Made by a program: the position numbers and the translations under genes
Origin: Brachionus plicatilis
Taxonomy: Eukaryota > Rotifera > Eurotatoria > Ploima > Brachionidae
NCBI GenBank assembly: GCA_010279815.1
Contig: QEOQ01000508.1
Location: forward strand, 1,573,129-1,637,128
Direction: 5' to 3'
DNA: 64,000 bases
Part shown: positions 1-46,385 of the stretch, one piece after another
How the letters are laid out: each line of letters opens with the position of its first letter
Numbering within the stretch: position 1 is the stretch's first letter
The notes under the pieces: model-generated
Database searches by the model: none
Seen by the model: only the letters and a program-made list of their open reading frames with translations
Told to the model about the DNA's origin: nothing

Positions 1-3000
1 TTGGCCAACTACATGGACGACGGTGAGTTTAAACAAGGAATTAATGTAAAATTCCAATACGAGCACATATTGGCAGATTATCGGCCTGGCTCGTGTCTCA
101 TAATCGTAATCGCCCAGGTACCTTGCCGGCTTCTTTTGAATACTTTAATCACATTTTAAAATAAACTCAGAATTATGTCTTGGAGTTTGACAGAAAAAAA
201 AAGAATTCCTGATGTGATTAAACAATTGTGCAATGGGCTTTATTGTTTTGTTCAAGTGCTACTTGAACAACAAACGTTAACACCCCTGGGTTTCGGAAAT
301 CACGCGAGTTTTAACCAAATATTTAAATAACAACCTCTTTATAGGATGCGTTCTCCGGCTAAACATTTCATATCATCTTCCATATCTTAATGAATTTTGG
401 CCTTTCTTATTTACTTTCTCACAAGATCAAATCGGAAACCCTCAGCTATTTACCTGGTTGGTCCACTTGATCGGCCTCTCAAGCTAAATTAAACTTTGTA
501 TGACTTTTGGAAAAAAAAATATTATATAGTTTTTACAAGCTCTTACTGAGTACTATTGAAGAGAAGCATGTTATTATAAGAAAAAAATTTTTTTTTGTTT
601 AATTTTGTTTTGATTTAATCAAACTTAAAGCTTGAGAAATCTTTTAAGTATTGATAGTTTGCTTATATCAAGATTTATTGATGTTTTAACGATTGTAATC
701 AAACATCAAAGATTTACGGGTAAGCTCTTAGAAATTTTAACATTTTAATAGTCGATCATTGAAATGCTCTTAGTTAAGACACTTCAATTTTGTGGCCAAA
801 TGTGTCTTTATTTTAGCCATTTTGAATTTATGTCATCAAAATTTAAATGAAAAAAAATTAGAATTTTTCTTTGTCCCCCAAAAGAAAACAATAATAAAAT
901 AAAATTTGATTTTAACAATATCTTAAACATTTTTTAATTCTGGAAAATAAATTGCCAATCCCTTTTTTTAAATGAATTTTTTATTTTGGTAAATAATTTT
1001 TTTATATTCGAATAGATATTTGATAATTAAATTAAATTAAATTTTTAATAAAAAGGTTCAAGTAACAATCAGGTTAATTCTTTCATTTAACTCATCCAAA
1101 TTAAAAAAAAAGAAAAGTTTTTCGGATACCATACTTTCACTTTAATTTCTAAAAAATTTAAGAATATTAAAAAAAGTCGAATTTCGAATTTTTATTTAAA
1201 AATAAGGTGATCAAAAATCTTAATTTTTTTGGCACTAATTGAGTCCAAAGTAGCTCAAAGTGTGTCTACAATTCCAATGAACTATTGCTTAATCAATTTT
1301 GCTTTTTTTAACCCGATGGATAAGAACTAAAATAATTAGATTATTAACACAACTATTTACTCGATTCTTAATTATTTCTTTGATGATTTAAAGAAAGTAA
1401 ACTGATACTGCAAAGAGCTAAATGAGTTATTGGCAAACATGGTCCACAAATAAATTATTGCAAAATTTTAAATAAAACTCGGGTCTGGAGATTAGCAAAT
1501 CGCTGATTATTTGTAGTAATTTTGTTTCTTTAGAAAAAAAAAATTTAAAAAAAAAAACTAGATTTTCAGAATTAAAAGCGAAGTAATTATGAAATAAAAC
1601 AAATATTTAAACAAGAAACAAGAATTCATCGTCAGAAATCGCCTTCTATTATATCATTTAATATGTTTGTTCAAAATTAATTTTAGAAAACTAACCCCCT
1701 CTGACCAAGTTTTAAAGACATGGAATATGAAAATACCGAAGAGACTCCAAAAACAAACAAAAACATTCCGAACCATAAAAACAACAATTGCTAAAGAGCT
1801 TTACAAACTTATGATTCAAGTGTATTCGTTCCAATTCTCTTTTCAAATTTTCTTCTCTGCTCTTAGATGATTTTAAATTCAGTGTTTTAAATTTTCCCTA
1901 CTAATATAACAATCATTATGCAACTAAAACTCGATTAGAGCTCAAAGCATTTGAATCAAATGAGGCTTTTAATCTAGTTGTTGAAAATAACCACTAATTA
2001 ATCTAAATCAGTTGAAAAATCGATTGCTAAATTAAATTTTTGAAATTTTTTTTGAAACTTGTTTATCAAAACAAAATTTTGTAAAAATTTTTTTTTCTTG
2101 TTTTATTATATTCATTCTTTATCATCCAAAAGGTGTTCACTGAAATAAATAGGAATAAATTAATCAAAACCTTTAACTGTTGCCTTCTACTTTTAAGAAT
2201 AAGGCAAACATTAACTTCATTTGATTTAATTTTAGAAAAATTAAAAATTAGCTCTTTAATATGGATCTTAATTTTAATTTTAAACAATCATTAATCTATC
2301 TTTAAATTTTATTTTTTCATCATAAGAAATTAAGTCAATAGGCTAAAAGAGGGGACCGTGATTCATTCTGAAAAGTTTCGATGAGATTTCACCAATTATT
2401 TTTAAACTGATAATAATTATTAATTATTATTTTATTTGTGATAAAAAATTCAAAAAAATATTTATAATAAAATCTAGCTCATGTTCCACGTTCGACTTTT
2501 TTCTAGCCGTAAACTAAATTTTAATAATTAGTTTACAAACCAGTAAAACCTAACACTCAGCAAAAATCTTGCCATTAATTTGGACATTATTAATGGAAGA
2601 TTAGCTAAAATTTCATTTTAAATATTTATTATAATCGTATATACTTGTCTTTTATTCTTAAGAATAAGGCAATAAACATCAAGTTCATTTATTTTGAAGC
2701 TATTACCTTCCAAATCATTTTAAAATGAATTTTAATTTTTTTTTTAGATATTTAATCTACGTATCTTAAAAAAAAATTTAAATCAATTAAGTTAATCGGC
2801 TGAAAAGAAGCACTGTGAAACATTCTCAACTAAATGGGAGATTTTTTTTATTATTTTAAAAAATAATCAGAATTATTTCAAATTTTTTTGTAATATAAAA
2901 ATCAAAAAAAATATTTACAATAAAATTTAGCTTATCTTCCATTAATAATGAAAAAAAAAAATTATTCTAAGTGTAAGTTTTATTCTTTTTTTTAGATTAT

Positions 3001-6778: not shown

Positions 6779-9163
6779 TCAATATTTAGATTTGAACAGT
6801 TCATCCAGTTCGTGAGACAATTTCAAAAGATCAGCAAGACTAAAATCGCTCATTGAATAGGACCCGTTTGGCTTGTGTTTAAGTGTGTGACTGTTGTTTG
6901 CTAATTTTGATTTTATCATTGAATAAAAAAATTCCGGCGCCTAAATAAAATAAAAAATAAAAAACATTCAAATATTAAAATTAATATTTACAGATTTTTT
7001 TATTTCATAGAGCTCCTTTAATAAATTTCCATTAATATTATCAAAAATATCCGAGTCGCCTATCCAAGGTGACATGTTGAGTGATATTAGCCATGATTTA
7101 ACATCTTTAGTGGACCATTCAATTACATTCGATTGTTTTGAATTGATAGAGTCATTAGATTGTCTGGTCGAAAATGATCCTCCTTTGCGATGGTACTCAA
7201 TACCATTTGACCCGTTCAGATTGTTATTGTACGTAATGGACAGGTTATTACACACTGAGCTGGAATTGTTCGAGCTGGTTGATTGGCGCGACTTTGGTTT
7301 TTCTTCTTGGTAATATCTATTTATTTCTTTTATAGCACTAGAAATCGTATGCTCAAAATTTAGCCTTGGACCATAAAATTTATAGAAAATTTTTCCTCCG
7401 ATTATGATGCCTAACCACCCCAAAGGCGTATAATCTTGCTGCATTATTAGTGGTATAATTGGCTTTTGTAACTTGACTGCGTACTCTGCCTCTAGTCTAC
7501 AATTCGGACTTTGGTAATATTTTTCGCTAACGCACATCAAAAAAACACTGGCGTTCTCCACCGCTTCAGCCATACTAGACAAAGTGCTTCCATAGATCTG
7601 TTCTACATCAATCCAAACCTGGATCCCTCTTGCCTAAAACAAAAAATTTAGAAATAAACTCAAAATGAACTTCATTTTAGAAAAATATATATTTAAAATA
7701 AAATTTTAATTGTTTACTTTTAATTCATCTTTAATTTTAATGCACATATCTCTTGAAGCCCAGTTATAGCTGATCATTACATGGTTATTTTTTAGTTGGA
7801 CTTTGGGGTCTATTTTTTTTCCAAGATCGTTCAGGGTGAACATTATACCATCGGCTTTTTTTTGCATTTGTTCACATGGTGATATATTTTGGATATTTCC
7901 TACAATTTGATTCAGCTCTTTATCTTTTTTGAGCACCTCGCATACTTTTTCGTCAAAGCATAAATTCCATAAGCATGTGAGCACATGAACTTGTTCATCA
8001 ACCAAACTAGAGCTGGACAATATTTGCTTCAGAACACTTAGTATGCCAGTTTCATAGATCTTCAAAATAAATTTTAATTCAAACCAGAATAACTCATTCC
8101 AAATTGGCTAGAAATACTTTTATTTTATTAGATTTTGTTACTGCTAGTTTAGCTAGACATTCCAAGTATTCGTTTGTGCTAATGCCTTTATAGCGTCTAT
8201 CTTTCTTGAGAGAATCTTTTATGTAAGACGTAATTGATTCGATTACCTCGCCTTTATTTGATGAAATTTTATTTTTATAAAATTCATTTTTTAAAACCTA
8301 CTTGAAGGATCATTTAGTTTGTCGAACTCATTTTCATTCACTATTTGTGCCAAAATTAGGTAAATCAAAACTCTTAGATGCTCACTATCAATTGTTTGCG
8401 TTAAATTTTTCAATATCTTTTGTGAAAAAATTTAAATAAAAATTAATTTTTTTTTTTATACTAAATTTTTTTTCTCTTTGATTTACCTTGGAAGTCTGGT
8501 TATGCTGAAAAGCTATTTTGGTCTCTGGCTGATGAGCAATGTTGTTCATAATATTCAACGATAATTTGAACAGCTTTTCATCCTTTAAATAAAGCCCGCG
8601 TAATTTAGACGATTTTATAATCAAAGATTTATATTTATCACTTAAATTAACCTCTTCATCCGACGACAAAAGACATTCGTTGGTCAAAAAGTCGAGTAGA
8701 ATGGGAATAAATCCAGTGCAGGCCTTGGATAAATAAAATTTTGAAAAAAAAAATATTTAAATTTAAAAAAAAGATTAAATATTACAATAGCCAGGTCGGA
8801 GTTGATGTCCGAATAGTTCCAAATGGACCTGAGTAAGTAGAAAGAGCATGGCCAAGTCTGTTCATTTTCGAACAGGTTCTTACGAGTGTAAAATTTAAGA
8901 CATTTAAGAGCGATTTCTTTTTTAGAATAGATTAATGAAAAAAAAATTTAAATAAAGTTTAGTGATAATTTACCAGGGTACTGATGCTCGACCATAGTCT
9001 TGGCAATATCGGCCCGCAAACTTTTTTCATCATTAAAAGAGTTGTCTATTTTTTTTAGATATTCCAAGCACTGGTCACTTTCGTATTCACTTTCAGGAAG
9101 TTTTTTGAGCGATTTTAAAATATTTCCAATTTTAATGACTGTAGTTAGTGATTGGGAATTCAT
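6779..9163 (-). CDS. ARM-repeat / TIR / SAM protein, candidate NAD-cleaving enzyme
   Basis: Eight exons were reconstructed: 9163-8974, 8916-8786, 8723-8487, 8416-8302, 8251-8118, 8059-7718, 7633-6992 and 6940-6779. All junctions are GT-AG and phase-consistent, giving 650 aa. Residues about 1-350 are armadillo-like helices (for example LHRSIWNYSD-type exon 2 and VHVLTCLWNLCFDE). A TIR domain (about 363-475) starts HVMISYNWASRD. It contains VWIDVEQIYGSTLSSM and SPNCRLEAEYA, where E431 sits at the C-x-x-E position of the catalytic Glu in NADase TIR domains. A Ser/Asn-rich linker follows, then a SAM-like domain (about 545-615, WSTKDVKSWL ... NLLKELYEIKKSAPEFF). SARM1 has the order ARM-SAM-SAM-TIR, so this is a different layout. 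NADase activity is inferred from the retained Glu. A scaffold role in innate signalling is the alternative. Confidence 0.85.
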
Positions 9164-15599: not shown

Positions 15600-15882
15600 A
15601 TGACTGATCACGTTTCTTCATTTCAACAGCCAACTGATCCCAAGAATGTACAAGAATTGACCAATTTTGTTCAATTGACACTTCAGCAAATGCAAGACAA
15701 ATTCCAGTCAATGTCAGATCAAATTATCAATAGAAATATCCTTTTTTAAATTTTTATTTTTCTAAATTTAAATTATTAGCCTTAATTCTTTTGTACTCGA
15801 TGAAATGGGTCATAGGATCGATGATTTGGAGAAGAATATTGCTGATTTGATTAATCAATCAGGCGAAGAACACCACAAATAG
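15600..15882 (+). CDS. HSBP1: Heat shock factor-binding protein 1 (HSBP1), isoform with exon 2a
   Basis: The two exons are 15600-15735 and 15797-15882, encoding 73 aa (human HSBP1 is 76). The sequence [20 protein letters not shown], then [18 protein letters not shown] and [17 protein letters not shown], follows the family almost residue for residue. The protein is a small coiled-coil trimer or hexamer that binds the HSF1 trimerisation region and dampens the heat-shock response. A second known role is in WASH complex assembly at centrosomes. The intron is not GT-AG: it begins ATATCCTTT and ends AC, the U12-dependent AT-AC class. The codon A|TC (Ile) is rebuilt exactly across it. A second possible exon 2 lies downstream at 15951-16063. 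The short N-terminal extension [11 protein letters not shown] is lineage-specific. Confidence 0.95.
15736..15796 (+). other. U12-type AT-AC intron of HSBP1
   Basis: The donor is ATATCCTTTT, matching the U12 consensus RTATCCTTT. The branch-site motif CCTTAAT at 15780-15786 is about 11 nt from the 3' end, within the 10-20 nt spacing of U12 introns. The acceptor is TTTTGTAC. No GT-AG alternative restores the conserved HSBP1 reading frame here. Confidence 0.9.
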
Positions 15883-15950
15883 ATTCCATAAACCCATTAA
15901 AATCAAAATATTAATCAAAGATTTAATTTTTCTTAACCTTATTTTTTTAC

Positions 15951-16063
15951 TCGGAGACATAGATTCTTCATTAAATGAATTAGAAAAAAATTTAGACATG
16001 AACATCAAACAATCCAAATCAGTATCAATAGAAACAAATGAAATGCAGTCATCTAACAACTAA
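15951..16063 (+). CDS. HSBP1: HSBP1 alternative terminal exon 2b (duplicated exon)
   Basis: The exon begins right after ATTTTTTTAC at 15941-15950. That AC acceptor is preceded by a near-consensus U12 branch motif (TTTTCTTAAC, 15929-15936). Joined to the same donor at 15735/15736, the split codon A|TC is again Ile. The frame then reads GDIDSSLNELEKNLDMNIKQ, followed by a Ser/Asn/Glu tail, and stops at 16061-16063. This gives an 82-aa isoform. RIGDIDSSLNELEKNL lines up with [16 protein letters not shown] of exon 2a and keeps the hydrophobic heptad positions. Tandem exon duplication is the simplest reading. A decayed duplicate is possible, but there are no stops or frame breaks. An AATAAA follows at 16133-16138. 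Confidence 0.7.
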
Positions 16064-17868
16064 AATCATTTGATTTAAAATCATTAAATGAGTCGGAAAT
16101 TCAATTTTTTTTAGATTAGAAAATTTTTCAACAATAAATAAATTTTTTTCAAAAAAAAAAATTAATTCTTTTTAAGTTAAATAAAATTTATACAAAATTT
16201 TAAATTTATTAGATTTTTAAACTTTATTTTAATTCAACAATCAATTAATAATAATAAAATTTATAAACTAAGTTAAATATTTAATTCTAATAAATTTTCT
16301 TTTTTAAATTTTTGGAAATCACCCCTTATTTTTCTAATTAATTTTGTAAATTATTTGTTTTATCATTTTTTTTTATTTTTACAAATTATTCGATGATATT
16401 TTCTCTCTAATGATCTCGAAAGTATTTAACAAAAAAGGAATAAAAATTTAAACAAAACAGAGTTTTTAAGTCGATATTTCTGTCGATTTTTTGTTATTTT
16501 TTCTTTTAAAATAAAGCATTTCGAAAAAAAAATGATTTGAATTTTTTTCTTTTTTAATTTGAAATTATCCTTTTGAACAATTTAAATTTTTTTAAATTTG
16601 CTAGTAACAGTAATGGTGATTCTGTTTTAAGTTAATTTATAAAAAAAAATGGTCAATGTTTTGTGAGGTGCATACTGACATCAGATCCGTTTGATTTCTG
16701 CTGATCCAATACTTAAACCTGTTTGAAAATTATTGAATGAAGGTTATCTCTTTTAATCACACAAATATTTATTCTAAAAATAATAGCTTTCTCCAAACCA
16801 CTCGTATATTGGACAAATTCAAAATTTGAATTTGAAATTATTCAAATTCTTAAACTAAAATGATCCTTTTTTGAAATTGCATTAAAAGAATTTTTTTGAT
16901 AAAATTTTTTGTTTTTAGCATATTTAAAGGCGTTCATAATTTAGGAAAAAAAGGACTGTATTGAAGTTTACTGAGAATTTTAAGTAAATGATATCAAAAG
17001 TTATATTTTTATTTTTAGAATAAGTTACTATTTTAATTTTGAAATTATTCGATGATTTTTTCTAAAAATCACATTTTATATCAGATTTATTTATAAAAAC
17101 AATAAAGTTTAATTTTTTAATTTATTTAGCTTATTAAGAATTAGTTTTGAAAAATGCTGACAATAAATTTTCATTATTCATTGGTGATAAGTACCAAATA
17201 CATGTCTACTAAAAAAATTAAGGATGCTTTGTCATACTTACTTAGAAACTTGTTAAGTTTTGAATGAATTAGAATGGATCGAATCATCAAAAAAATTAAT
17301 TCCGAATATTATAAAAATAAACCTTTTTTCTTCAAAATTATATCAATGTTTTAGATTTAAAATTAATTAAAATTATAAAAATAACTTAAAATAACAAACC
17401 TAAGCATCTTTCACTGTTTTTTTACTAATGTTCTGTTGAAAATATTTTTTAGTTTTTGATTTAATTAGAAAAAATGTTTTTTTAAGCTTTGTTTTCACAG
17501 TGAGATCAGTTTTAAATTTTCATTAAAAAATTCGGATTTTTAAAATTATTATTTCATTACGCTAAGTAAGAAAAATTAGTTAAATTTTTATTTCGAAGGT
17601 CCAAAAACTAATAAAAATATGGTCGATTGATCAAATATTCATTGACTAGTTAGCTTAAATATTTTTACTCAAATATTAAGCTTAAGTCATAGAAAATAAA
17701 GTTAAAACTTCTTAATTCCATAATCTCTAAGAAGAGACCTTTAAAAAAACTTAGTTCATTCGAGAAGCCAAAGTTTTAATTATTAACAATCAATTTGTTA
17801 CTAAGGTATTAGTTGAGCTTAAATTTGCCAATTTAAAATAGAAAATTATTTTTTCGCTAGTTTATAAA
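16064..17868. other. Intergenic; no gene seen
   Basis: Contains the HSBP1 poly(A) signal at 16133. The remainder is AT-rich with homopolymer runs and no coding-like exon. Confidence 0.5.
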
Positions 17869-19167: not shown

Positions 19168-19882
19168 ACGAATAATTTTTTTAAACTACTAAAAGAAATT
19201 AATTTTTAAAGAAAAAAAAACTAATTAAAGGATGCACATTAATTATGCCGACTTTTTTAAATCAAAAAGTATTTTCACGATGCTATTCTCGTTATTATTT
19301 TCAATTTGACTCCTTGGTCATTTCTTCAAAAATTATTTAATCATAAAATTAGATTTTATTGCTAATATTAAATCTAATTTATAAGCTCAGTTAAATATAT
19401 TGAATTTCTATAAAAATTAATTTTATAATTTTTTAAAAATAAAAAATTGATTAATTATGATTTCAAAAATTTAATCATTTTTTTCGTTTTTTTTTCTATT
19501 ATCATTTTTTGATATTAAATAAGCTTATTCTTCAAGAAATCACTTATAAATAAATTTAAAAATAAAAATTTTTTATATTCACTTTATCCTCACTATATAT
19601 TAGAAATTTTTATTGCTCTATAACTGCAAAAATGCAAATTTATTGAACTTAAGGGCTATAGCTCCTGAATCTTTTGAGATTTTGAAGAATGAACACATGA
19701 TCAAATAACCAAATTTCAAATTTGGTAGAAAATTTATCTTTGGCATTCTTGATGAATATTTATTCGGGCTATGATTGATTTATTTTCATTGAGCACTGTC
19801 TAATTTAGAAAAGAATTTTGAAAGAATTTAAAAAAAAAATCCAAATTAATTAAAAGAAACAAAAAATAGATTAGAAAAAAAT
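19168..19882. other. Intergenic; no gene seen
   Basis: AT-rich sequence. 19874-19880 carries the T-run (on the minus strand) that should terminate Pol III transcription of the adjacent tRNA. Confidence 0.5.
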
Positions 19883-19955
19883 CGCCCGATAAGGGGCTCG
19901 AACCCTTGGCCTTGAGATTAAAAGTCTCACGCTCTACCGACTGAGCTAACCGGGC
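19883..19955 (-). tRNA. tRNA-Lys (UUU)
   Basis: On the minus strand a 73-nt cloverleaf reads GCCCGGT...ATCGGGC with discriminator G. The acceptor stem pairs over seven positions, including one G-T. The D-arm holds the A box TAGCTCAGTCG and the T-arm holds the B box GGTTCGAGCC. The anticodon loop CTTTTAA gives anticodon UUU. There is no intron. A run of T follows directly and should act as the Pol III terminator. Confidence 0.98.
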
Positions 19956-21030
19956 ATATTTTTATCTGTTACTAAGGTATATTTAAAAAAAATTTCATTC
20001 ACTAATCAATTAATTCCTTTTATCTGAAACAAAATATTCAAACAGATCTAATTGTTTTTTTTTAATTTTATAAAATTTTATTTAATCTTGATCAATATTG
20101 TCATTATGGCAATTGACAGGAAAATTGATTGAAAATTTTACTGTTACAGGCTTTTTATCACAATACATTTCCCATTTTAATTTAATAACACAAATATTTA
20201 TAAAAATATTTAAAAAAATATTCATATAAGATTTAGAATATTTAAACATACAAGAAAAATATTTTACTTTTTAAATCCTTTTATTAAGAAGCATAGAAAA
20301 GAAGCTTCAAATTAATATAAAATATTTTATTTGATTTTAATGGCATGTGCTAATTCACTAAATAAAATTACTGATTTTTCACCCATTTTACTAGATGAAT
20401 ATAAATGAATTACTTTTCATAAAATTACTTAATTAATTTAAAAATGTGAATTTTGTTTAAAATCAAGATTGATGTAGTTAACCTAATTTTTAATTAAATT
20501 AAAAAAAAAACAAATTTTTATTTAATTTTTTTAGAATCTTTTGTTTAACCTTTATCACTTTATGAACCGAATTGTAATAAACAAAGAATTATTGAGATTC
20601 AAATTAGAAACCAGATTACAGAACTTAAATTTTTCATCAAAATCCATACCATAATATTCTAAATTATCCAAATAAAAATTTTTAATTGCACAAAACATCC
20701 TTCTCTGGCTCAAAAATTGCTAAATATCATTCAAACATCTATCTGCTGATTTTTAGTTTTTTTTTTAAAGTAAAATTATGTTTAATTTAAAATTTTAATA
20801 CGATTTAGAAAAATTAATAAGAATAATATTATGCAAATTTTGAATCAAAATTTTTTTTAGTAATTTTATTTAAACAATAATAAAAATTCCAATTTTAATC
20901 AAATAAATAAAAAATGATCGATAAGGTAAAAAATTTTTCCAAATAAAAAGCTTTTTTTTTCACTCAAATTTTTTCTAGCGACGCATAAAAAAATTAATTG
21001 GTAAAAAATCAATATCATTACAATTAAAAT
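19956..21030. other. Intergenic; no gene seen
   Basis: AT-rich sequence with no exon or recognisable repeat. It ends at the 8-bp target duplication of the hAT element (21023-21030). Confidence 0.5.
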
Positions 21031-22280: not shown

Positions 22281-22543
22281 ATTAAAATAATATAATATAA
22301 ATTTAACTCATTTAATTAATTAATTGTAAAATAAAAGCTCACATAATTATTTTGTAAGAGTTAAAGACAAATTATAATGGTTTGTGTTCTATTGGAAAAA
22401 TTTCAACTTAGTTTTGATTAAAATTTTGAATTATTAAAAAAAAATTCTGTTCCAGAAAAGTCTCCCCTAACCCAGAAAAATCTTCCTAGATATTTAAAGT
22501 AAAATATTTCGATATTAATAGTTAATTGATTAACAACAAAAAA

Positions 22544-23422
22544 ATGGATGATAGTAAAATGACATTTCTACAAAATGTGCTCCGGTTCACAACATCTAAC
22601 ACCGACGAAGCAAACACTGGAGAAAAACTGGAGCGCGATATGAGTCCTGAGCGCAAAAAATGGCTCTCTGAAGCACTCGATTCAATTTCTATCAATCCAG
22701 TTGACGAAATTAAAAAATGCATCAAAGTGTCTGAAAACGAAGAAGAAACTGAAGAGCGACGCATAGAAGCTCTGGAGACCCTAAGAGATTGGTGCGAGGA
22801 TTTAAATTTTGCCATTGATTTCCACAAGATAAACAGTTATAATTTGATCAATCAACTTTTGAATGACAAAATCACCGAAATACGAGCTCTAACTTGTGAA
22901 CTAGTTGGGACATTGGCTCAAAATAATCCATATTGCCAAGAGACATTAATCAATGCCAAATACTTGCCTATTTTACTTTATAAACTTGACAAAGATTCGG
23001 ACAGTGTCAAAGTAAAAGCTTTGTTTGCCATATCTTGCCTAATTCGAGATTATGAGCCAGGTCAGCAAAAATTACTTGAAGGAAATGCCCTTGATATTTT
23101 GATCAAAAGTTTAAGCTGTAAAATTGAAAAAGTTAAAATCAAATGTTCTTTTTTGATTTCATCTATTTGTAACAATAAGGCCATTAAAAATGCTCTCACT
23201 CAAAAAAGACTTATCAGTGATTTGATCCATATTTACAGACAAGATGACCATCAAATTCATGAGCATATCCTATCAGCCATTAATGTTCTAATTGATGATA
23301 ACCCGGAAGCGATTAAGCAAGCAAAAGAGTTAGAAAATATTGATTTTAAAAAATTATTGAAAGATCGCTTACGAGCAATTGAACAAGATCCGAGACATGA
23401 TGTAATTTTAATTTTGAATTAA
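22544..23422 (+). CDS. HSPBP1: Hsp70-binding protein 1 (HSPBP1 / Fes1 family)
   Basis: Single exon, 292 aa from ATG 22544. The in-frame sequence before it lacks an ATG. The N-terminus carries MSPERKKWLSEALDSI (33-48) and an acidic EALETLRDWCEDLNFAIDF segment, both typical of HspBP1. Four to five armadillo-like repeats follow, with VKVKALFAISCLIRDYE (155-171) and KVKIKCSFLISSI (196-208) as family signatures. The protein binds the Hsp70 ATPase lobe in the cytosol and acts as a nucleotide-exchange factor, modulating refolding and degradation. The length fits, since human HSPBP1 is about 360 aa with an extra Gly-rich N-terminus. The hAT element ends 264 bp upstream, within the likely promoter. 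Confidence 0.92.
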   Translation: MDDSKMTFLQNVLRFTTSNTDEANTGEKLERDMSPERKKWLSEALDSISINPVDEIKKCIKVSENEEETEERRIEALETLRDWCEDLNFAIDFHKINSYNLINQLLNDKITEIRALTCELVGTLAQNNPYCQETLINAKYLPILLYKLDKDSDSVKVKALFAISCLIRDYEPGQQKLLEGNALDILIKSLSCKIEKVKIKCSFLISSICNNKAIKNALTQKRLISDLIHIYRQDDHQIHEHILSAINVLIDDNPEAIKQAKELENIDFKKLLKDRLRAIEQDPRHDVILILN

Positions 23423-40500: not shown

Positions 40501-43500
40501 CTATCTGATTCTGTTGGAGTTTAAAAAAAAAAAAAAAAAAGAAAAAGAACACAATGAATAATAATTATCAAAATTAAAAAATTAACATTTCAAAATATAG
40601 ATCCCTTATTATATAAATACTAAAGCGTAATTTTTCTTGATCCCTCAACCAAAAAACCTTAATAAACATTTACAAGTCACTAATTCGATCGATCTTGGAC
40701 TATTACCGTATTACCTCAAATAGAAGTAACCACAAATAGAAGAAAGTTGCTACTATTTGAGGCAAAAATTTTCTTTTATTTGAGTTGTTTTTCTCAAAAA
40801 ATGTGTCTCGATTAAAAGAAAATTCACCAGTCATTTGACATGTAAAACATGCATTTTTTTGTTTCTTTTAGAAGGAAAAAAATGGATAAATTTCTTTTAT
40901 TTGAGTCACTTTTTTGAAGTGAAAAATTTTGAAATAAAAGAAACCCTTTGATGACCGAACTTTCTTTTATTTGAGGAAATACGGTAATCATTTATACACT
41001 CAAGGCTATCAAAGACAAGAAGCAAAAATCTCAAGCAATTCAACAATCAGCAATTCGTGTTATTTACAAAAAAAAATGAGAAAGATGAGAAAATGAAAAA
41101 ATTACAAAAAATATCGGATCTTTGTACTATTCAAACAAGATTTCAAGACTTAAACAAATCATACCTCTACAATTGCATCATAAACAACAACCCTCTTTTA
41201 AACAATTTAATGGATGAATACATTTCCAGTGGTGAACATGCACCGAAAAAATCAATGAAACTTTATTATGCAGATTTTTTAACTCGGACCAAATAAGTTA
41301 ACTTCTGCTTTTTATTCTTATTGTTCATTAGACCTTTTGTTTATTTCGTTAGACTTTGACCAAAACGGTTCACACTGGTGCCAATTTAAATAAAATAAAA
41401 TTAATTCAAAAAGACTTTCTGACGATAATTTGTAAAAAGTATCAAAGTTTCTTCATTATAAAAAATTAGTTCTGAATCCAAGTCCTCTACTAATTCAATT
41501 ATTCGTAGAGAAGATTATGATGAAGTGAATCTAACAGACACCGATGTTGATGAACCAGGGACTTAAAAATTTAGAGATTCTTCAAGGAGGTATACATAGA
41601 AACATGGATAAAAATATAGATGACAAAATATATAGAGTTGCTAAAAAAAAATAATGTAGAATAATCAAAACATAGAAGAATCAAAATAATATAGAAAAAA
41701 TAAATAATTTAGGAAATGTGGAAAAAAATAAAAATTAATTTTTTTGAAGAATTGAAGAATTGATTAAAAACAATAAAAATATTAAGCTAAATTAGAAAAA
41801 AATCAAAAAATCAAATAAAAATTGTTTCGCAATACGAATCAAAAACAATTGAATTGCATATTAATGGTATTGCTTGTTTATTTCTAGATAATTAATTAAT
41901 TATATATAATTTAAGAGTAAGATTTATAGTTTAAAAATATTCTATTTTACATTTTATTTTTCAACATAATTGACATTTGAATATTTTTACAATTCTATAT
42001 TTTATTTTTCTTCATATTGATATTTATATATTAAATAAAATGCTATATTTTTTTTCTATGTTTTGATAGATCGCCATTCTTCAAAGCCAAAAGACTTGTA
42101 CAAAACTTATCAATCACTTTATGCTTGTACGAACAAAAGAAGGGTGCAAAAATTATTTTAACTCACACGGCCCTGGGAATTCTATCCTTTAAATTTACAA
42201 ATATTTTTTATTAAAAACTGACATGTAATTTTTTTAGTAAATTAGTATTTTGGTATGACTACTTTAATTTTTGTACTAAATTTCCACATTGGCAAAGCGA
42301 TTTGGTTCGGGTCTTGTAGCGTAGATCAAATTTTCGGTTTTGTGAAATTTAGTACAAAATGATAAAAAGAACAGAAAAAATGTAAAAAAAATTGAATAAC
42401 TTGGCAAATTGAAGTTTCAGATCAAATTTTAAGATCAAAACGATCACTTAAAATTTTAAAACCTAAATAATCTAATGATTTTAATAATTTCTAAGAAATA
42501 AATACTAAACGTTACTAGAAATGTTATGTCTAATACTGTTTCATTATCAAATTAACATCAAAATAATCGATCTCTAATTTATTTAACAAAAACAATCAAA
42601 AATTTAAATAATTCAGGTTAAGTTAATTCACAAATTCAAATTTATAACTTTTATATCCATTCATTCAAACTGAAATAATTTTTTATTTCTCTACTTTAAT
42701 AAATTTTAAATTTTAAAACAGTTAATTTTTTTGTCTTTAAAGTAAGTTTTCATTAAAATCAATTAAAATATTTAAACCTAATAGAGTTCAATAAATAGGG
42801 ACATTTTAAAATTTTAAATATGAAAATAAACTTGACATGACATGTCAAGTAATTGCTTTTGAAAAAATTTATTTTTTCTCTTTTATTAAAAAAAATATTA
42901 CAATTTATATTTTGATCTTTTGATCTTGATCTCAAACTTCAATTTGCCAATAACTTTTTTTCTAAAGGTTTAAACTTAATTCTGTAAATGCAATATAATG
43001 CAACATTCAAAGTTACATCAAATATCAAGGTCTGCTAAATTTGCAGAGTTTAGCAGAATTTAAATTTCAATAAAATCGAGCGTAGTGCATTTTTGCAGAA
43101 ATTAATTCTGCATTCACAGAATTAATTTTAAAATTTTAGAAAAAAAGTTATTTAATTTTTTTACAATTTTTTTCTTTTGTACTAAACTTCACAAAACCAA
43201 ATTTTCAAAAAAAAAAAAAAGACTTAACAAAAAAAATCCGAACAAAAAAAAGAGGTTGGTGGGGGAGGGGGATAGTCGCGGCGACAGAAAGGTGCAACAG
43301 TGCGCTTTTAAGACAAAGATTACCTGATAGATTAAACACATTTCTACTATTGGATTTTTTAAACTTGATTACACAATTAAAAGAAAAAAAAACATAAAAA
43401 AATTTACAGACAAACGCTCACCTCTTTGGCCTCGTTTTCAATGTCCTTTTTGGACACAGCGGTCAAATCGTCGACGTCGTCGGCGTCTATCTTGGCGCCA

Positions 43501-44823
43501 CTCGATAGCGAATGTGCGTGTGGGGCAGTGTGCGCAAAGTCCTTGTACTTGGGATTCTTTCTGGCCACATTTTCAATGCGGCTCCACAGCTCGTCCCGCT
43601 CTCGCACCTTTTCCTTCTCCTTCTGCCTCTCGGCCTTGTACTTTTGCGAGCACTCGTCGAACAACTTCTGGTTCATCTCCATGAACAGCTTGAGCGCATT
43701 GTAGATGAGGCCGTGAATGGTCTTGTTCCAATGGGACTTGGTGTTTTTGTACAAAGCGGGAAACATGATGGGCAAAATGACAGTGGCGTTCTCGCCGATC
43801 AGACTCATGATGTACTCGTTGTTCCAGTAGTAGAGGGCGCGCTCGGCCACCTGAAAGTGGGGCGAGGAGACGCAGCGGGCCAGCTGCTTGAACAGCGGCA
43901 CCATCACCTTCTGGAACTCGACGGGCTCGATCACGTCCAGTATCTCCTCGAGCTCGTTGAGGAACATGACCTCCTTGGGACTGTGCGTCTTGGGCCAGAA
44001 CTTGAGCAGGCCCTTGATCACCTGCTCGGTCAGACTCGGGTCCTTTTCCAAAAACTGGACGACACAGTAGGCAAGCTGCGGATGGTAGACGTTGAGCAGC
44101 TTGGCCTTGTGCAGCGGCAGCAGCACCCGCACCAAAAAGTGCTTGTGCTCTTCTTTGAGCGGCAGCGCGAACCCGTTTATGATGCTGCCGAGTATTTCGA
44201 GGAGCTCGGCGATGCCGTTGTGCCGCTCCGTCTCGTAGATGAACCGGTGGAACGTGTGGTTGATCTGCTTGCGGATGTAGGCGCGCAGGCCCAAAAATTT
44301 GCCGTAGATGCGGTGCAGTATGGTCTTGAGGAAGTCGCGTTCGCGCGGGTCCTCGCTGTCGAACAGCTCGAGCAGCTGCAGCAGGAACTTTTGGTCGATG
44401 TACTTTTTGGCCGTGTTGGGCTGAAAGTCGGCCGACTCGAGAAAACGGAGAAAAAAGTCGTAGATTATTTGGAGGTGAGGCCACGCGGCCTCCAAGTTCG
44501 GCTCGTCCTCCTCCGGGTCGAACTCGGTGCCCGTCGGATTCGAGCACGGCGGCAGCGTCCGGAACATGTTAGTGGCGAACATGCGCACAATCTCGTCGTA
44601 GACGGCCTCGGTGAGCACGCCCCGGCTCACCGTCACGTACTCGACCAGCTCGTTCAGCGTTTGCCGCTTCACCTCCTTCGACTTGAGGTCGCTGAGCGGC
44701 TCGCTGAAGTCGAACAGGGTCGCGCACTGCTGGATCTTGTCGACGAAGAGCCGCTCGCGCTCCCCCGCCGCCGCCTCCTTCAGGCCCGGCAGCTTGCTCA
44801 GCTCTTTGGCCGCCGCCAGGGGC
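37587..44823 (-). CDS. PPP2R5: PP2A regulatory subunit B56 (PPP2R5), 5' end in gap
   Basis: Two exons are solid: 44823-43422 (open into the gap) and 37733-37587 (stop TGA), 515 aa visible. The large exon spans nearly the whole B56 HEAT-repeat domain: [59 protein letters not shown] and [16 protein letters not shown]. Its donor AAAGAG|GTGAGC joins in phase 0 to [22 protein letters not shown]..., the RRKSELPQD tail of the delta/gamma group. Without this splice, an intron read-through would end SVCL. B56 subunits target the PP2A catalytic dimer to substrates in mitosis, Wnt and Akt signalling. The large exon is very GC-rich (55-75%) in an AT-rich setting, while the terminal exon is AT-rich. Intron 43421-37734 is 5.7 kb with TE relics. 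Confidence 0.96.
40640..41296 (+). pseudogene. LINE reverse-transcriptase C-terminal fragment, interrupted
   Basis: Left of the MITE the frame reads [14 protein letters not shown]. Right of it come SFIHSRLS, then in another frame [15 protein letters not shown], and in a third [20 protein letters not shown] and [12 protein letters not shown]. These are consecutive parts of the RT C-terminus seen at 27065-27604. At least two frameshifts and the insertion break it. Confidence 0.75.
40706..40984. mobile_element. MITE with TA target duplication
   Basis: The ends are CCGTATTACCTCAAATAGAA and, in reverse, CCGTATTTCCTCAAATAAAA, flanked by TA on both sides (40704-40705 and 40985-40986). Internal repeats of TTTATTTGAG occur in both orientations. 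There is no coding capacity at 279 bp. It is probably mariner/pogo-related and inserted into the LINE fragment. Confidence 0.8.
41470..41566 (+). other. Orphan coding-like stretch (possible terminal exon)
   Basis: After a possible acceptor AAATTAG, the frame reads [20 protein letters not shown], then [11 protein letters not shown], and a stop. The acidic, Ser-rich composition is unlike random AT-rich DNA. No partner exon was found. It may be a transposon relic or part of a gene nested in the PPP2R5 intron. Confidence 0.25.
42325..43200. repeat. Inverted-ended repeat related to the 5.5 kb and 11.5 kb copies
   Basis: The left end GGTTTTGTGAAATTTAGTAC and the right end, read in reverse, GGTTTTGTGAAGTTTAGTAC are near-identical. 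Internal GCAGAA motifs (43035-43115) match the dispersed repeat at 5515. It contains a perfect 19-bp palindrome, CTTGACATGACATGTCAAG, at 42831-42849. Confidence 0.55.
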
Positions 44824-45522
44824 NNNNNNNNNNNNNNNNNNNNNNNNNNNNNNNNNNNNNNNNNNNNNNNNNNNNNNNNNNNNNNNNNNNNNNNNNNNNN
44901 NNNNNNNNNNNNNNNNNNNNNNNNNNNNNNNNNNNNNNNNNNNNNNNNNNNNNNNNNNNNNNNNNNNNNNNNNNNNNNNNNNNNNNNNNNNNNNNNNNNN
45001 NNNNNNNNNNNNNNNNNNNNNNNNNNNNNNNNNNNNNNNNNNNNNNNNNNNNNNNNNNNNNNNNNNNNNNNNNNNNNNNNNNNNNNNNNNNNNNNNNNNN
45101 NNNNNNNNNNNNNNNNNNNNNNNNNNNNNNNNNNNNNNNNNNNNNNNNNNNNNNNNNNNNNNNNNNNNNNNNNNNNNNNNNNNNNNNNNNNNNNNNNNNN
45201 NNNNNNNNNNNNNNNNNNNNNNNNNNNNNNNNNNNNNNNNNNNNNNNNNNNNNNNNNNNNNNNNNNNNNNNNNNNNNNNNNNNNNNNNNNNNNNNNNNNN
45301 NNNNNNNNNNNNNNNNNNNNNNNNNNNNNNNNNNNNNNNNNNNNNNNNNNNNNNNNNNNNNNNNNNNNNNNNNNNNNNNNNNNNNNNNNNNNNNNNNNNN
45401 NNNNNNNNNNNNNNNNNNNNNNNNNNNNNNNNNNNNNNNNNNNNNNNNNNNNNNNNNNNNNNNNNNNNNNNNNNNNNNNNNNNNNNNNNNNNNNNNNNNN
45501 NNNNNNNNNNNNNNNNNNNNNN
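44824..45522. other. Assembly gap (699 N)
   Basis: The gap starts inside the PPP2R5 coding exon, just where GC content peaks. It must contain more of that exon and possibly its acceptor. Confidence 1.
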
Positions 45523-46385
45523 AGCTTAATTTAAATACAGTTTTATTGATTTTTAAAAATGGCTTTTTGTTAGCAAGACGAAATAAGAAAGTGTAACAAA
45601 TTGTTGGCGGAGCTGTAAGCTTAGGCTGACTCTACTCCCTGGTCATATTGGACCTTTCATACTAGTTATAATTTGTAACTAGTCTTGTTGCTAGAATTAG
45701 ATTTAAACTAAACTCGTAGTTACTAGGCTTTATTTATAACTAATAATTGGTTAGAACTTGGAACGAATTTAGAAAATAGAATGATATTCAAAGGATATAT
45801 AGGAGAGAATACTTTGATTTGAAAGAGCAAGTTTATATTTTTAGCTCAAGATTTGATCTAAAACTAGTCTATTCTTTCCAATGCCAAAGTCTAAGTCCAG
45901 TCCTAAGTTAACTTTTTTGATTGAAAACATTATTATTCCTCTAATGCACAATTGAATACTTTGGGATGGTCGACCGGTTTGGTTTGGACCGGTGGTTTAA
46001 TAAAATATATTTATTTTTCAGAAATTTTGATTTATTATTTTGATATTTTCTGTAAAGTATTATTTTTATTAATCAGTTTAAACTTTTTATTAAATCTAAA
46101 GATTTAATATTGATTCTGTAAAATAATTTAATAAGGGGTCATATTTATTACTAAAAATGGACTCATTACTCATTAGCAACATTTAGTAATTTGGTCTCAT
46201 AATTTAAATAAAATGAAATACTATCTATTTTTTCTATAAAAATGATTACTATACATGTCCTCAACTCATTGTCTGTCTCAATTATTACTTTAAATAACTT
46301 ATTAATTACTGATATAATATGCATAAATTAATTAAAGTGAATCAGATATTAAATTAAAATAAAAAAGTTCTTTTTTTAAAATATT
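45523..46385. other. Noncoding; probable PPP2R5 intron
   Basis: AT-rich sequence with no exon seen. TAACTAGT-type motifs repeat loosely at 45650-45730. Confidence 0.4.

Follow-up and report, generated by a model that had tools for sequence, protein, structure and literature searches.

A U12-type AT-AC donor facing two AC acceptors, each with its own predicted coiled-coil ending, in HSBP1 of the rotifer Brachionus plicatilis

Mutually exclusive exons involving a U12-type intron have been described in JNK (MAPK8/9, exons 6a/6b) and in TMEM87A/B (exons 11/11a), where U12-type 5′ splice sites compete with U2-type 3′ splice sites (PMC8329584, PMC6717393). Here we analyze HSBP1 of the rotifer Brachionus plicatilis, located in a 64,000-nucleotide stretch of contig QEOQ01000508.1 (assembly GCA_010279815.1, positions 1,573,129 to 1,637,128 of the forward strand; hereafter the window). 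As read from its sequence, the gene carries one U12-type AT-AC donor facing two AT-AC acceptor signals, and behind each lies a different version (2a or 2b) of the last coding exon. We predict that the minor spliceosome selects one or the other HSBP1 ending, and exon 2b is probably a diverged, functional copy of the last exon. Unlike in JNK and TMEM87, HSBP1 offers its single U12-type donor two AT-AC acceptors that are both U12-type, and which of them is taken would set the C-terminus; instead of exclusion between U12 and U2 sites, we find that both acceptors are AC with U12-like branch motifs.

Alternative splicing involving a U12-type intron also alters the products of the Drosophila prospero and Urp twintrons, but these are overlapping U2 and U12 introns, with neither two U12 acceptors nor duplicated exons (PMC3584512). 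Alternative 3′ splice sites of U12 introns, in which one U12 donor meets more than one acceptor, are known as well (PMC3584512); unlike those, the two HSBP1 acceptors come with separate branch motifs and lead to separate, homologous coding exons, each ending in a stop of its own. A 2012 review described alternative splicing of U12 introns as almost entirely absent and did not decide between regulation and error as the source of alternative U12 acceptors (PMC3584512), a near-absence tempered by a 2019 survey in which alternative splicing near minor introns depended on tissue, fell into many categories and was reported for all the tissues covered (PMC6717393). A survey of more than 3000 genomes identified bdelloid rotifers as cases of extreme minor-intron loss, and its main text contains neither the word Brachionus nor HSBP1 (PMC10639083); no HSBP1 case was found in PMC6865273 and PMC2831892.

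Our literature search, which did not extend to supplementary tables or subscription papers, found nothing pairing HSBP1 with a U12-type or minor intron, nor Brachionus with HSBP1 and heat shock factor. It likewise returned no HSBP1 case of alternative terminal exons chosen by AT-AC acceptors, in agreement with the original prediction for this locus, which had been made from the DNA letters and knew of none. Judged by this search, a choice between duplicated endings made wholly within the minor spliceosome would be new relative to the U12-versus-U2 cases found. That HSBP1 contains such a switch in full, in which a lone AT-AC donor is joined to either of two AT-AC acceptors whose branch sites differ in strength and a stress-response protein thereby gains one of two homologous coiled-coil endings, is a possibility that we advance tentatively.

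Gene structure and the public model

The predicted elements of the gene, with distances in nucleotides (nt), are the following.

15600–15735, plus strand: HSBP1 exon 1, with the start codon, the N-terminal half of the coiled coil and the first base (A) of a split Ile codon; alone it scores 44.3 bits with PF06825 and 38.2 bits with PDB 3CI9
15736–15746, plus strand: predicted U12-type AT-AC 5′ splice site ATATCCTTTTT, common to both predicted isoforms
15780–15796, plus strand: putative proximal U12 acceptor, with branch-like CCTTAAT at 15780–15786, AC at 15795–15796, and 11 nt from branch A to AC
15797–15882, plus strand: coding part of exon 2a, the canonical HSBP1 ending, with stop TAG at 15880–15882; its ending is the same as that of the public B. 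plicatilis protein P0004
15928–15950, plus strand: putative distal U12 acceptor, with branch motif TTTTCTTAAC at 15928–15937, AC at 15949–15950, and 14 nt from branch A to AC
15951–16063, plus strand: coding part of predicted exon 2b, 37 codons including the split Ile, an alternative coiled-coil ending with a polar tail and stop TAA at 16061–16063
16133–16142, plus strand: AATAAA signals (16133 and 16137), a possible shared poly(A) signal found by motif scan only, the motif being frequent in AT-rich DNA

Exon 1 comprises 45 full codons and the A that opens the split Ile codon, and the U12-type 5′ splice site pattern ATATCCTT occurs at 15736. Joined at the AC of 15795–15796, exons 1 and 2a yield a protein of 73 amino acids that, by its sequence, is an ordinary HSBP1; joined at 15949–15950, exons 1 and 2b yield one of 82 amino acids with a different ending. 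Both 2a and 2b start with TCG and complete the split Ile codon, and the two acceptors lie in the same phase, 154 nt apart on the same strand. The consensus of the U12 branch site is TTCCTTAAC. The branch-to-AC spacing of 2a falls within the optimum of about 11–13 nt (PMC3584512), and that of 2b is one nucleotide past it. These results bear out the original prediction as far as it described one U12 AT-AC donor facing two AC acceptors, a second acceptor with its own U12 branch motif preceding an open exon, and a separate stop for each ending.

The identification of the gene as HSBP1 also held. The curated cut-off of PF06825 (28.6 bits) was passed by the 2a form (93.1), by the 2b form (62.1, although this form would clear it through exon 1 alone) and by exon 1 itself, and PDB 3CI9, human HSBP1, was matched at 66 bits with 2a and 54.6 bits with 2b. 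Canonical HSBP1, as represented by these two entries, is thus matched by exon 1 with 2a, and the rotifer gene differs from it by the second ending. No second HSBP1 copy was found in the assembly (102.9 Mb).

Among 69 homologous proteins, 28 carry I-x-R-I-D, the joined form, and 35 continue past the R as R-N-I-L, as would be expected if this same donor were read through. The remaining six fit neither pattern: P0039 and P0040 are joined, judging by their tails, P0041 reads through, with S-R-N-I-L, P0038 and P0052 are uninformative, and the sixth, P0004, is the public model. These counts come from protein letters rather than DNA and are numbers of proteins, not of species. On this basis, the U12 AT-AC donor looks old.

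The original prediction spoke of duplicated, mutually exclusive last exons. The endings are neighbouring, share a phase and, as far as similarity can tell, are homologous, but the notion of separate exons did not survive: 2a, which has its own stop, runs into the acceptor region of 2b, and no intron that would make the copies separately excisable was indicated, the plus strand of the window having no further exact U12 donor octamer (weaker or U2 donors were not scored). Because 2a and 2b need no intron between them, the exact octamer is unrepeated on that strand, and a 2a message would hold 2b as 3′ untranslated region, a composite terminal exon entered through either of two tandem U12 acceptors describes the structure better than two separately spliced exons do. 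A 2a message would lose 2b only if cut early; CATAAA at 15887 and ATTAAA at 15896, both from a motif scan, are candidates for early poly(A) signals. In the whole window, where G+C content is 21–28% in 4-kb steps, the octamer occurs twice against 3.7 times expected by chance, and a bare donor octamer therefore proves nothing alone.

The public protein P0004 (“heat shock factor-binding 1”, Brachionus plicatilis, 59 amino acids) can be reproduced letter for letter from the window with a GT-AG intron at 15713–15815. This model omits the alternative exon and costs 14 residues, including S-D-Q-I-I-N-R. Because that stretch is missing from P0004 though the other 17 alignment rows share it, and because the AT-AC intron is not used, the public model is likely an artefact, and it illustrates that an exon can go unnoticed behind an AT-AC intron. 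The public B. plicatilis annotation may mis-model such introns elsewhere too, HSBP1 being the one gene checked.

Similarity and constraint in exon 2b

The original prediction aligned the two coiled coils, including the split Ile, and over 22 residues from the start of 2a and 2b we count 8 identities and 14 positive pairs. Their BLOSUM62 score of 35 was reached by 37 of 100,000 shuffles in which the leading Ile was kept in place. When the 4547 AC sites of both strands were read in this phase, 969 stayed open for 22 codons, and none but 2a itself matched exon 2a better than 15949, the next sites scoring 27 and 13. Ranked by U12 branch motif with a hand-entered weight matrix, 15949 is second of 4564 AC sites and its motif is nearer the U12 consensus than that of 2a, whose score is reached or exceeded by 58 AC sites. 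Relative to exon 1 alone, the PF06825 score gains 17.8 bits from 2b and 48.8 bits from 2a. The similarity of exon 2b is far from chance.

At the nucleotide level, 35 of 65 positions match, and the 30 differences are concentrated at third codon positions (7, 7, and 16 of 22 at the first, second, and third). When neutral decay of 2a to the same distance was simulated, 22 codons stayed open with an equal protein score in 30, 92, and 239 of 20,000 runs, the three counts corresponding to three transition weights. The codon score of 2b was reached by only 3 of 215 control open stretches outside long open reading frames. From these comparisons, all of which lie within one gene, it is very likely that exon 2b arose as an exon copy that has since diverged while its coding sequence stayed constrained. 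Tandem duplication of acceptor and exon, as originally proposed, and of old date, is likely in view of the resemblance of 2b to a diverged copy of 2a, although the nucleotide match is 35/65 and the upstream similarity falls in AT-rich sequence. If kept under coding constraint, the duplicated acceptor and exon would let nature itself provide a clean test of how U12 acceptors are chosen, within a region of 464 base pairs.

We also considered 2b as part of a gene on the minus strand and rejected it, the sole open antisense frame across 2b having a codon score near zero.

The minor spliceosome and the choice of acceptor

In the mechanism that we propose, the minor spliceosome would pair the donor once and then select the near or the far branch site, in the latter case joining 15735 to 15951 in RNA. 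The outcome would be set by competition between a near acceptor with the weaker branch (CCTTAAT, 11 nt) and a far acceptor with the stronger one (TTTTCTTAAC, 14 nt), and use of both acceptors appears likely.

The genome contains a U12 gene (84.1 bits), two U6atac matches (91.5 and 78.9 bits) and U4atac (70.4 bits), each above its Rfam cut-off, and the U12 copy retains GTAAGGAA, able to pair with both branch motifs. Genome-wide, the AT-AC pattern gave 37 matches and its reversed control 59, and the bare count is meaningless for that reason. Thirty of the 37 matches became loci (L019 and L020 being the same place); all 30 were examined and four were run against Pfam. The Pfam match spans the junction in a Na/Ca exchanger gene (L010), where an AT-AC intron with branch TTTCTTAAC, as in 2b, joins open frames, and in a cullin gene (L029), whose AT-AC intron likewise joins open frames; at L022 it does not. 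In an XPG-like gene with an XPG_N match (L023, about 1501–1573, reverse strand), the left exon fits the reading frame, as we read it, only if the U12-type intron is taken as AT-AA, with branch TTTCTTAAC.

Several observations weigh against a functional 2b ending. U11 was not found in the genome with the Rfam model; 14 control genomes do not calibrate this miss, because they were silent in the U12, U4atac, U6atac, and U11 searches alike. The nearer acceptor could win almost always. Pairing energy with U12 is unremarkable for the two branch sites (57 and 164 of 4558 AC sites are equal or better), and folding of the region between the acceptors shows no special structure. By itself, 2b matches no Pfam family. 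No 2b-like ending occurs among the 69 homologues, by patterns or tails, sequence searches returned no homologue of the 2b frame, and the only other match to it in its own genome has an E value of 1.9. This is a weak negative, because the list contained no correctly joined close HSBP1 and an exon of 37 codons is one that gene prediction would hardly pick up; HSBP1 loci of relatives, sought in viral and genome contig collections, were not found. On a profile of 27 homologues, the 2b tail reaches 86.0 (exon 1 alone, 70.3), the top of 5075 acceptor tails when 2a and re-reads of exon 1 are excluded, but the next tail, unrelated and inside a glycine cleavage H gene, reaches 85.4, so that the test is not decisive alone.

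The near-tie on the homologue profile and the ordinary pairing energy would both fit a coincidence, in which an open frame, a U12-like branch and an AC came together by accident in AT-rich intergenic DNA. In the whole window, 452 of 4531 AC sites are open for 37 codons; outside long open reading frames 215 of 3580 are (about 6%), which would fit a coincidence as well. Coincidence is nonetheless highly improbable: 15949 ranks second of about 4550 sites on two unrelated measures, and it lies 154 nt past the 2a acceptor, on the same strand and in the right phase.

The lack of 2b among homologues and Pfam families could instead mean that 2b is a relic, a duplicated exon that was once used and now forms 3′ untranslated region of a single canonical HSBP1 message, with splicing to 15949 rare or none; the nearer acceptor would suffice for normal HSBP1. 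We regard this as unlikely, since a neutral copy with 30 differences in 65 nt would seldom be both open and so similar (30–239 of 20,000 runs), 2b has the more consensus-like U12 branch motif of the two (on the hand-entered weights), and the codon score of 2b lies above 212 of the 215 control stretches. A diverged but functional last exon chosen by the minor spliceosome remains our preferred reading.

As a separate matter, RNA structure between the acceptors was rejected as a mechanism, 98 of 100 shuffles folding at least as well (z = +2.14), and U12 pairing energy proved weak as a ranking of branch sites.

Predicted proteins and neighbouring genes

The two predicted proteins would have the N-terminal coiled coil in common. 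In its own part, 2b retains the hydrophobic residues of the 3-4 repeat at I1, I4, L8, L11, and L15, replaces the Leu of 2a by Asn at position 18, and ends in a longer, polar tail. The 2b form would thus likely mix into trimers with 2a, with a shorter core. In vitro, HSBP1 homotrimers mix with CCDC53 homotrimers (PMC8047104), and HSBP1 is reported to promote assembly of WASH and to inhibit HSF1 (PMC8047104, PMC8634480). Mixed trimers would likely tune exchange with partner coiled coils, for example CCDC53 of the WASH complex, or HSF1; HSF and CCDC53 domains are both encoded in the genome. If the proposed choice is real and minor-spliceosome capacity shifts with stress or stage, the ratio of 2a to 2b would shift with it, giving the rotifer a dial on HSBP1 trimers and hence on HSF1 or WASH assembly.

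Alternatively, 2b may be made while choosing 15951 serves mainly to lower canonical HSBP1, in which case the protein with the 2b ending would itself be weak or unstable. This reading is not fully distinct from a functional 2b ending, in that 2b is spliced in both cases, and it would suit the Asn in place of the last core Leu, the absence of the A-D-L of 2a and the smaller PF06825 gain (17.8 bits vs 48.8 bits for 2a). We consider such a mainly regulatory role quite doubtful, because selection at the protein level is suggested both by the surplus of differences at third positions and by the preserved hydrophobic repeat.

The HSF DNA-binding domain has two adjacent matches in the genome (G000:C95:64400-65366) with two and one internal stops, reflecting introns or broken copies, and a third match on C12 with none.

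Elsewhere in the window, a Fes1-domain gene (PF08609; Hsp70 exchange factor type) lies at 22526–23422, about 6.5 kb downstream of HSBP1, and a tRNA-Lys gene (TTT) occupies 19882–19956 on the minus strand. An open reading frame with a TIR domain (PF13676), which we take to be SARM1-like, is found at 6968–8065 on the minus strand, and the frame upstream of it matches V-ATPase_H_N below the cut-off. A gene at about 43400–45600, adjoining a stretch of N, is presumably a PP2A B56 regulatory subunit.
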